Origin: Anaerolineaceae bacterium
Lineage (GTDB): Bacteria; Chloroflexota; Anaerolineae; Anaerolineales; Anaerolineaceae
NCBI GenBank assembly: GCA_016841365.1
Contig: JAENZI010000005.1
Span: forward strand, 1-64,000
Length of the DNA: 64,000 bases
Reading direction: 5' to 3'
Both the position numbers and the translations under genes were made by a program. The notes beneath the pieces are model-generated. The model worked only from the letters and a program-made list of their open reading frames with translations. It ran no database searches and was not told where the DNA came from. Positions 3,358 through 44,666 of the stretch are shown in pieces; position 1 is the stretch's first letter, and each line of letters starts with the position of its first letter.

Positions 3358-3364
3358 TGTCTGT

Positions 3365-3450
3365 TTAGTGGGTCTTGTTTACCTGAGAGTTTCGGTTATT
3401 AGCCTTGCCCCTTCGGTGCCGTATGTGCTCTAACGGTCTCTTCCCACTAA
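3365..3450 (-). ncRNA. Glycine riboswitch, single aptamer
   Basis: Read on the minus strand, this element has a perfect 8-bp P1 stem (TTAGTGGG at 3450-3443 with CCCACTAA at 3372-3365), an AGAGACC segment, the family's core GGCACCGAAGGGGCAA and the 3' core AACTCTCAGGTAAA. These are the conserved blocks of the glycine riboswitch aptamer. It lies between a strong promoter and gcvH, so glycine should turn on gcvH-gcvPA-gcvPB. Only one aptamer is visible; the region downstream lacks the core blocks of a second. Confidence 0.93.
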
Positions 3451-3471
3451 CATCCAACGGATTACATCCTG

Positions 3472-42657: not shown

Positions 42658-43263
42658 CTATTCTGTAGGAGAATTCGTTTCATCACCAGTTCTTGATATT
42701 TCTGCCAAAACAAGCGTCAATAAAAATAAAATGATAAAAATGGATACCCCAAGCATCGCAAATTTTAAGATTGTGAATGCCTGTGCAACCCACACCAAGC
42801 TTGTGGGGTAGTTGGGGTAATTGTTAGTAATGTTAACAAACATAAAATTTTCAACCAAATCAAACACTGCTGCCAGAACGCTAAAAAGGGGGAGAACACT
42901 ACATGGTTTTTCTAATTTGTTCAATAACAGGCTGATCAAACCTGACAGAAATAGACCATAAACAATTGGAAAAGCAAGATCTGTGGTTAGATGCAGATAT
43001 TGATATGCTTGTCGTCCTTCAAGACCGATGGATGACAAGAATTGGTAAATTTTTTCCGGCGTCTAAGTGCCCATCACATCTGGAATGGTAAGATCAGGGC
43101 TGTTTTGGGTAACAGATTTCAGGCTTCCGGGTGAATTTGGTGAGTTAAAAAGAATCAAAACAATAATGATCAGAATGCCAAAAAATATAACGCGTTTCTT
43201 CGTTCCTAATTCACTGCAAAAGGACTGTATACCGATTTTTGCTGTAAGGGCTATCTTGTTCAT
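42658..43263 (-). pseudogene. Membrane protein gene interrupted by one in-frame amber codon
   Basis: Two pieces read in the same frame on the minus strand and are separated by a single TAG (plus 43063-43065). The first encodes 66 residues with one membrane helix (VIFFGILIIIVLILF), ending in DVMGT. After the stop, the frame continues with TPEKIYQFLSSIGLEGRQAY and three to four membrane helices to 42658. Without the stop it would be a 201-residue membrane protein. The segment after the stop resembles the Y-T/S-P-E-x-x-Y motif of small four-helix membrane proteins, so a Tyr codon may have become TAG. It could be a recent loss, a sequencing error or readthrough. Confidence 0.75.
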
Positions 43264-43387: not shown

Positions 43388-43416
43388 TTGACAGGTGTTT
43401 TAACTGGGATTATAAT
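43388..43416 (+). promoter_or_regulatory. Consensus sigma70 promoter of the antiporter leader
   Basis: TTGACA (43388-43393), 17 bp, TATAAT (43411-43416): a perfect match to the consensus. Transcription would begin near 43423, about 210 nt before the antiporter start codon. Confidence 0.9.
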
Positions 43417-43422
43417 CAACCC

Positions 43423-43596
43423 GGTTATAAAATATTGTAACAAGAAAACTTATGGATAAATTTCAAGAATTTCAAGCGCCGATAGAAGACGACCCTGAAG
43501 GGTGTTTAGGGGACCATTAGGCGCGCAGAACATTCCTTGAAATTATTTCAATGCAATTGCTCAGGGTCACGGTTCTGTGACCCTGATTTTATTTTG
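43423..43596 (+). ncRNA. Structured leader RNA with terminator, candidate riboswitch or attenuator
   Basis: Between the consensus promoter and the antiporter, nested helices can form: AATTTCAAG (43468-43476) with CTTGAAATT (43536-43544), GCGCC (43476-43480) with GGCGC (43520-43524) and ACCC (43492-43495) with GGGT (43500-43503) around a TGAA tetraloop. A 10-bp terminator stem (43561-43570 with 43577-43586) with TTTTATTTT follows. GACCCTGA at 43491-43498 equals the terminator's 3' arm at 43579-43586, so it can pair with the 5' arm at 43561-43568 and block the terminator. A 22-codon ORF (43452-43520) lies inside but has no ribosome site. I know no riboswitch class that matches. Confidence 0.6.
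43561..43595 (+). terminator. Intrinsic terminator in the leader of the antiporter gene
   Basis: TCAGGGTCAC (43561-43570) pairs with GTGACCCTGA (43577-43586) around a 6-base loop, followed by a T-rich tail (43587-43595). It ends before the antiporter's own ribosome site (GGAGAGG, 43615-43621). Confidence 0.88.
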
Positions 43597-43631
43597 GTCA
43601 ATTTTTGATTATTTGGAGAGGTCATTTCATT

Positions 43632-44666
43632 ATGCTCGATTTCTTATCACAAAGTTTACTGCTGCTGATATTGTCTGGGGCGATCTCGATTGCTATCCTG
43701 GTTGTTTCATCGAATGTCACAGTCAAAAAATTAACCGGGTTAGCGGGATATTTCCGTCTTTCCACAACCTTTATGGGTGTGACAGTCGTCTCGATTGCGA
43801 CCAGCATCCCCGAAATAGCCGCCCATTTTACTGCCTCAGTGGGTATTTTGAGCGGCACCCTTGATTATGAGGTCAGTTCGGCGATTGTCTTGGGTGCCAA
43901 TATTGGCTCTGATGTTGTGCAGCAAACGCTGATCATGGCGATGGTGGTTTTAATTGCTGGCGGACTCCACTTCAAACGGTATTTTCTGTGGAAGAGCATG
44001 ATCCCCATGATCGTCACAACCCTGATGTGTATTGTTTTAGGTATTGACGGAACCTACTCGCGTATCGACGGCATAATTTTGTTTGGATCATTTATCGCTT
44101 ATATGTATTATTTATATGTTGATGAGCGAAAGCATTACAAAGAGGAGGACCATGGGTTCACAGAAGATGGTGAAACACCGGAAGGTGTCCCTCAAAATGC
44201 AAAAGAAGCTTGGCGGGATGCATTTATTGCCTTGTTTACATTAGGTTTGACCATCGGCAGTGCAATGATTGCATTGCAGGTCACTGAAGTGGTTGTTGCT
44301 CGAACCGGCATTGGCGGTTCTTTAATCGGTGTTATGACCTTGGGTATCGCATCAGCGTTACCAGAGTTCATCACAGCGTATGCAGGCGTTCGTCATGGTG
44401 ACAGCGGCATATCTTTGGGCACGCTGGTTGGCAGCAACATCACCAATCCCCTGGTGGCGATTGGTGGGGGTGCCATAATCAGTACTTATTGGGTGCCGAG
44501 ACCATTAGTGGTTTGGGATTTACCCTGGGAAACGATCACAGGGGCAATCTTATGGGTTGTTTTATGGTTGAATAAGGGGAAATTAGGGAAATGGACAGCT
44601 TACTATTTGATTGGATTGTATTTTGTTTACGTCACCATGCGGATGATCTTCTTCTCGATTGATTAG
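43632..44666 (+). CDS. Sodium/calcium exchanger family antiporter
   Basis: A 344-residue cation antiporter of the CaCA superfamily with about ten helices in two halves. The two inverted alpha repeats are VTVVSIATSIPEIAAHFTAS (near 60) and GVMTLGIASALPEFITAYAGV (near 245), each with the acidic residue after Pro that binds cations, and each followed by GANIGSD or GSNITN. A charged cytoplasmic loop (YVDERKHYKEEDHGFTEDGE) joins the halves. The ATG at 43632 has GGAGAGG upstream; a TTG at 43605 is in frame but lacks a site. The exchanged ions are not shown by sequence. Confidence 0.92.
   Translation: MLDFLSQSLLLLILSGAISIAILVVSSNVTVKKLTGLAGYFRLSTTFMGVTVVSIATSIPEIAAHFTASVGILSGTLDYEVSSAIVLGANIGSDVVQQTLIMAMVVLIAGGLHFKRYFLWKSMIPMIVTTLMCIVLGIDGTYSRIDGIILFGSFIAYMYYLYVDERKHYKEEDHGFTEDGETPEGVPQNAKEAWRDAFIALFTLGLTIGSAMIALQVTEVVVARTGIGGSLIGVMTLGIASALPEFITAYAGVRHGDSGISLGTLVGSNITNPLVAIGGGAIISTYWVPRPLVVWDLPWETITGAILWVVLWLNKGKLGKWTAYYLIGLYFVYVTMRMIFFSID

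Follow-up and report, generated by a model that had tools for sequence, protein, structure and literature searches.

The leader in front of a CaCA-family antiporter gene in the window (the whole 64,000-nucleotide stretch that was analysed) is probably a translated, ribosome-mediated leader-peptide transcription attenuator, in which a ribosome that decodes an acidic, proline-containing motif slowly or unstably would set the termination of transcription ahead of the gene. As a reading of comparative sequence, the translated leader-peptide attenuator is well supported: at that level conservation lies in the nascent peptide, and the RNA pairings vary by genus. Since the peptide is kept and the surrounding RNA mostly is not, the ribosome that makes the peptide probably decides whether the antiporter is transcribed. 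The features on which the argument depends are the following.

43388–43416, plus strand: sigma-70 promoter TTGACA-17-TATAAT, 12/12 consensus, with an aligned counterpart in six relatives
43452–43520, plus strand: leader ORF, ATG to TAG, 22 aa, MDKFQEFQAPIEDDPEGCLGDH, start and frame kept in seven Brevefilum genomes
43458–43475, plus strand: region 1, codons 3–8, the 5' strand of P1, able to form the 1:2 duplex with region 2
43473–43499, plus strand: motif QAPIEDDPE, codons 8–16; general form Q-x-P-[ILV]-[EQ]-D-D-P-[ED], nine pattern matches in 400 genomes
43491–43498, plus strand: GACCCTGA, codons DDPE, the 5' strand of P3, complementary to the terminator 5' arm
43505–43511, plus strand: TTTAGGG, the 3' strand of P3
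43526–43540, plus strand: region 2, CAGAAC (43526–43531) and CCTTGA (43535–43540), partner in both 1:2 and 2:3
43561–43577, plus strand: region 3, terminator 5' arm TCAGGGTCAC and loop GGTTCTG, pairing with region 2
43561–43586, plus strand: intrinsic terminator hairpin (3:4), -18.7 kcal/mol (relatives -13.5 to -21.3), followed by the T-rich tail TTTTATTTTG
43632–44666, plus strand: CaCA-family (Na_Ca_ex) antiporter, 344 aa, PF01699 E=1.7e-31, the proposed regulated gene

The leader-peptide sequence that bears the acidic/proline motif is MDKFQEFQAPIEDDPEG.

The antiporter locus

A perfect promoter, an intrinsic terminator and a downstream CaCA antiporter had been proposed in the initial annotation, and all three were confirmed. 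The promoter is the sole 12/12 match across the 2.4 kb scanned, the corresponding position is occupied in the six aligned relatives, and transcription is predicted to start at about 43423. The antiporter product is matched by PF01699 in two stretches, with which its alignment to NCX_Mj structures (E=2e-11) agrees, and it carries ATSIPE..GSD and SALPE..GSN, i.e. GTSLPE-like and GSN-like motifs in two Na_Ca_ex repeats; against TIGR00367 it reaches 140 bits, which is under that model's cut-off. An intrinsic terminator lies between leader ORF and antiporter in all seven Brevefilum genomes as well as in L065, L066, L067 and L079, and is imperfect in L014. In G246, G240, G253 and, in imperfect form, G116, a terminator-like hairpin stands 22–39 nt past the ORF stop.

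Elsewhere in the window, an ordinary glycine riboswitch at positions 3360–3455 of the minus strand (RF00504, 65 bits) immediately precedes minus-strand glycine-cleavage genes, gcvH, gcvPA and gcvPB, named here from a reading of their ORFs. Nearer to the antiporter, and divergent from it, is a 126-aa ORF (42658–43038, minus strand) that is apparently membrane-associated, has no Pfam match and is convergent with ABC-transporter genes.

A conserved leader peptide in Brevefilum

A DNA search of the genus recovered the same leader in six further Brevefilum genomes. It is present in all seven of those that carry the antiporter and absent in all nine that do not, several of which are incomplete. Across the seven, the peptide follows the consensus M-D-K-[FY]-Q-E-[FY]-Q-A-P-[IV]-[QE]-D-D-P-E with a variable tail of 5–7 residues; in L003 and L004 the original ATG is gone and an in-frame ATG 6 nt upstream replaces it. 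Over the 15 codons D2–E16, third codon positions account for 9 of the 13 variable sites (P=0.002) and the pooled pN/pS is 0.10. No strong Shine-Dalgarno sequence is present upstream of the ORF, and similarity of the leader in DNA searches ends at the genus.

The same purifying selection across the N-terminal two thirds, together with the strict linkage to the antiporter, would also be expected if the ORF coded for a functional small protein, such as one that regulates the antiporter, with a terminator that just sets the operon ratio. The C-terminal tails, however, diverge in sequence and the ORF ranges from 21 to 52 aa in length, the Brevefilum peptide has no evident hydrophobic segment, and the terminator loop forms conserved alternative pairings with both the RNA of the ORF and its downstream flank, all of which makes a functional small protein improbable to a high degree.

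The peptide motif across genera

The peptide extends beyond the reach of DNA similarity. Among 400 genomes from the order, the pattern Q-x-P-[hydrophobic]-[QE]-D-D-P-[ED] was matched nine times, every time ahead of this antiporter and 130–165 nt upstream of it, and the reversed pattern used as a control was matched zero times. A scan of 84,980 species genomes with the Brevefilum form of the pattern gave Anaerolineaceae/Brevefilum records and no others. The core peptide also precedes antiporter orthologues in the genera g91, g94 and g97: the leader peptide of G246 ends in TEYQQPIEDDPEHPCQRAYRV, and those of G240 and G253 contain LKNQPPLQDDPDGYVP and MINQVPIEDDPESSFC, respectively. In a second family, the leader peptide of G116 ends in AIPSDPYLDDPEGSQYVC, a looser DDPEG form that lacks Gln. 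For these four leaders, identity to Brevefilum over the 95 nt past the motif is at the level of shuffled sequence. The DDPE residues are at codons 13–16 here, which puts acidic residues and proline among the first 30 or so codons; they fall at about codons 20–24 in L066, L067 and L079 and, provided that the GTG start assigned to it is correct, at about 43–46 in L014.

Antiporter orthologues with 57–75% identity were gathered from the family, the order and the phylum. In the resulting tree the antiporters of Brevefilum, g94, G116 and G240 form a single clade of 11 (support 100/100). Every one of the 11 carries a promoter, a leader ORF and a terminator-like hairpin, and 10 the DDP motif. The antiporter of G253 falls outside this clade; most other orthologues beyond it have no recognisable leader, and in many of them promoter and gene are about 50 nt apart. 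A search of the relatives of G116's family gave no additional antiporter orthologue.

Several observations concern variation around the motif. The proline codon of DDP (43494–43496 here) is CCT in all 11 motifs, where in six genes nearby CCT accounts for 27% of proline codons; for the second Asp, 10 of the 11 use GAC. Common descent, constraint on the codons themselves, or the two together may explain this uniformity. The leader of L065 (G245), whose ORF MFEKMHEFQHPGCDIAAVAACAVLLP lies about 180 nt before the antiporter, keeps promoter, ORF and terminator and has lost the DDPE core, with [FY]Q-x-P remaining, through either divergence or decay. Outside the clade, L085 (G315) and L075 (G243) have a promoter 146–220 nt upstream and a terminator-like hairpin with no DDPE peptide, L085 having a 38-codon ORF upstream of its antiporter orthologue; these regions are possibly other attenuators of the same gene.

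Alternative pairings in the leader RNA

The leader RNA is stably folded (-52.8 kcal/mol, z = -3.8 against dinucleotide shuffles), and the P1 (9 bp), P2 (5 bp) and small hairpin drawn in the initial annotation are present in the minimum-energy fold. Because the ORF runs through them, the 5' strand of P1, the 5' strand of P2 and GACCCTGA are codons. The pairing that is best conserved joins region 2 to the terminator: CAGAAC to GTTCTG (43572–43577) of the terminator loop is paired in 100% of the cells compared, and CCTTGA to TCAGGG (43561–43566) of the arm in 97%, over the seven Brevefilum genomes. CAGAAC is unchanged in all seven of these non-coding copies, and no other reason for the invariance of the terminator loop is evident. 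The 2:3 duplex has an energy of -11.8 to -16.4 kcal/mol and is significant (P<=0.018) in each of the seven; beyond Brevefilum, where single sequences were evaluated, P is 0.09–0.41 and not significant. Region 2, which starts 5 nt past the ORF stop here and 4–9 nt past it in relatives, can pair alternatively with codons 3–8 of the ORF (P1, 1:2), and this 1:2 duplex has an energy of -9.0 to -13.0 kcal/mol, with P<=0.01 in two of the seven genomes. In L067 and L079, from two genera, the ORF ends in CAA TAA, and GCAATAAG and CGCAATAA at these ends are complementary to the terminator's loop and the start of its 3' arm, CTTATTGC and TTATTGCG, respectively, so that the stop codon would there sit within the antiterminator.

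A different antiterminator had been proposed in the initial annotation, between GACCCTGA and the terminator's 5' arm, TCAGGGTC (43561–43568). The complementarity is real, at 8 bp in six of the seven Brevefilum genomes, and when a ribosome at the stop codon covers the 3' strand of P3 the pairing has a mean probability of 0.65 with cross-ribosome pairs allowed. As a general antiterminator it is disfavoured, since the arm CCAGGATC breaks it in L008, the terminator arms of other genera lack TCAGGGTC, and it would have to form across a bound ribosome. We therefore think it unlikely to be the main antiterminator, although it may serve as an extra one in some states; the pairing of 43526–43540 with 43561–43577, found in all seven genomes, is the better conserved.

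A stable fold, mutually exclusive pairings and a cation antiporter downstream are also what one would expect of a riboswitch in which direct binding of a metal ion or proton state by the P1-P2-P3 domain frees or hides the terminator arm with no need of translation, and it was as a riboswitch candidate that the leader had been annotated, with the ORF overlooked. The P1-P2-P3 domain, however, consists of codons under purifying selection, and what the other genera retain is the peptide, not the RNA. When a covariance model built from the leader RNA was run on 147 genomes of the family and 396 of the class, convincing matches came from Brevefilum only; weak matches in G200, G209, G087 and G625 (per-genome E of roughly 1e-3 to 8e-3) were judged to be chance, and the sequences of L057, L058, L063 and L064 contain no such leader but mostly one hairpin with a similar stem. 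The absence of compensatory changes in homologous leaders had been named at the outset as evidence against an RNA sensor. Two pairs with such changes were found, a number matched by 81 of 500 shuffles, one of them in P3 (GAG/CTC in L006); P3 is paired in 82% of cells, and both P2 and P3 contain mismatches. With so few changes, covariation does not stand above shuffles as structural evidence, which tells largely against an aptamer. Rfam has no family for the leader: nothing was found at the gathering threshold, and at E<=10 there were only chance matches to snoRNA, CRISPR and viral families (E 1.6–8.4), in line with the original reading, which had found by eye no match to yybP-ykoY, ydaO or fluoride motifs. 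The switchable terminator before a cation antiporter stands, whereas a cation-sensing aptamer does not fit a leader that codes for a conserved peptide and is followed by shuffle-like RNA, and we give a riboswitch very little credence. A cation may still be the ultimate signal, acting via the ribosome.

A model for ribosome-mediated attenuation

The 1:2, 2:3 and 3:4 pairings and an ORF stop just before CAGAAC amount to the layout of a ribosome-mediated attenuator. In the model that we propose, RNA polymerase would start at about 43423 and produce a leader with the 22-codon ORF, within which QAPIEDDPE, acidic and containing proline, is expected to slow the ribosome or make it unstable. A ribosome dwelling on this motif would cover region 1 and leave region 2 free for the 5' arm and loop of the terminator (2:3), so that no terminator would form and the antiporter would be transcribed. 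If the ribosome were absent or left early, region 1 could capture region 2 (1:2), and the terminator (3:4) would be favoured with the gene off; a ribosome that reached the stop codon, 4–9 nt before CAGAAC, would cover the start of region 2, with the same outcome. Translation of the ORF and motif-driven stalling or destabilisation are here inferred from sequence.

Calculations of ribosome position are compatible with this scheme in part. When the ribosome's footprint is masked, a P site at codons 10–14, within the motif, gives the highest 2:3 probability (0.92–0.97, mean over the seven genomes), and with the ribosome at the stop the CAGAAC:GTTCTG helix drops to 0.15. With other footprints, and with cross-ribosome pairs either allowed or forbidden, the upstream pairing of the Brevefilum arm is near-constant between motif and stop; in the other genera, with cross-ribosome pairs forbidden, it is 0.23–0.33 at the stop versus 0.5–0.6 at the motif. 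Because the broader footprint measure discriminates less well in Brevefilum, we put forward as a hypothesis that stalling turns the gene on. Simulated occupancy of the arm was rejected as proof of the direction of the switch, its outcome varying with the footprint and with cross-ribosome pairs.

The identical 1:2/2:3/3:4 layout is used by attenuators such as the trp and his leaders, and here too scarcity of a charged tRNA (Gln, Asp or Pro) could stall the ribosome and turn the gene on; Gln stands at codons 5, 8 and often 12, and the CCT proline and DD are invariant. Such an amino-acid-specific attenuator nevertheless strikes us as a poor candidate: there is no run of a single codon, Gln is absent in G116, the target is an ion antiporter, and, unlike in amino-acid attenuators, the entire motif is retained, hydrophobic and E/Q positions included. 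For the leader-peptide attenuator that we favour, the acidic/proline core is likely to act as a nascent peptide, and an ionic signal (Mg2+, Ca2+ or Na+/K+ acting on the ribosome) is a plausible inference. Acidic and proline motifs near the N terminus are known to trigger ribosome destabilisation or pausing, as in EPDP of MgtL, the designed NKDEPD and the minimal DPEE (PMC11282234), and in mgtQ acidic codons act via alternative 1:2/2:3/3:4 stems upstream of a Mg2+ transporter (PMC8092293). As for EttA, the ABC-F proteins of the source genome all score below the cut-off of the EttA model.

More tentatively, we speculate that Q-x-P-[ILV]-[EQ]-D-D-P-[ED] could define a new class of regulatory nascent peptides, through which the ribosome would report an ionic condition (e.g. 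free Mg2+, Ca2+ or the Na+/K+ balance) and control a Chloroflexota antiporter by attenuation, the RNA switch being rebuilt in each genus. Most known leader peptides that destabilise the ribosome belong to Mg2+ importers of enterobacteria; a different acidic/proline peptide, strictly tied to an antiporter in a distant phylum, would suggest that the use of the ribosome as a sensor of ions or of the state of translation arose more widely and serves other kinds of ion transporter too. The compact peptide is itself testable, and the case carries the caution that a structured leader unmatched in Rfam may turn out to be coding sequence. In the open-licence papers searched we found no description of a leader peptide for a CaCA antiporter, nor of one in Brevefilum.

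Comparison with known systems

The leader shares with the yybP-ykoY, NiCo, Na+ and Li+ riboswitches a switchable terminator before an ion transporter, and differs from them in matching no Rfam family and in building its structure from a coding region. With the arrest peptides SecM, MifM, TnaC and CliM it shares a conserved nascent-peptide motif encoded upstream of the controlled gene; unlike them, it is very short and has no signal sequence, and its arrest is putative. To our knowledge, the motif itself resembles none of these four. Like the trp and his attenuators, it has an ORF over region 1, a stop just before region 2, a 2:3 antiterminator and a 3:4 intrinsic terminator, whereas it lacks a codon run for one amino acid, conserves the peptide sequence itself and precedes an ion antiporter gene.

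The leaders mgtQ (Salmonella mgtB, PMC8092293) and MgtL (mgtA, PMC11282234) likewise combine a short ORF, acidic residues and proline near its start and a cation transporter downstream. In both, the behaviour of the ribosome on the acidic stretch sets expression, as it would here, and with mgtQ the alternative 1:2/2:3/3:4 stems are shared as well. The peptide here, on the other hand, carries QAPIEDDPE and not EPDP, the output is an intrinsic terminator as against occlusion of the ribosome-binding site in mgtQ and Rho in MgtL, and the target is a CaCA antiporter rather than a Mg2+ importer, in the phylum Chloroflexota.
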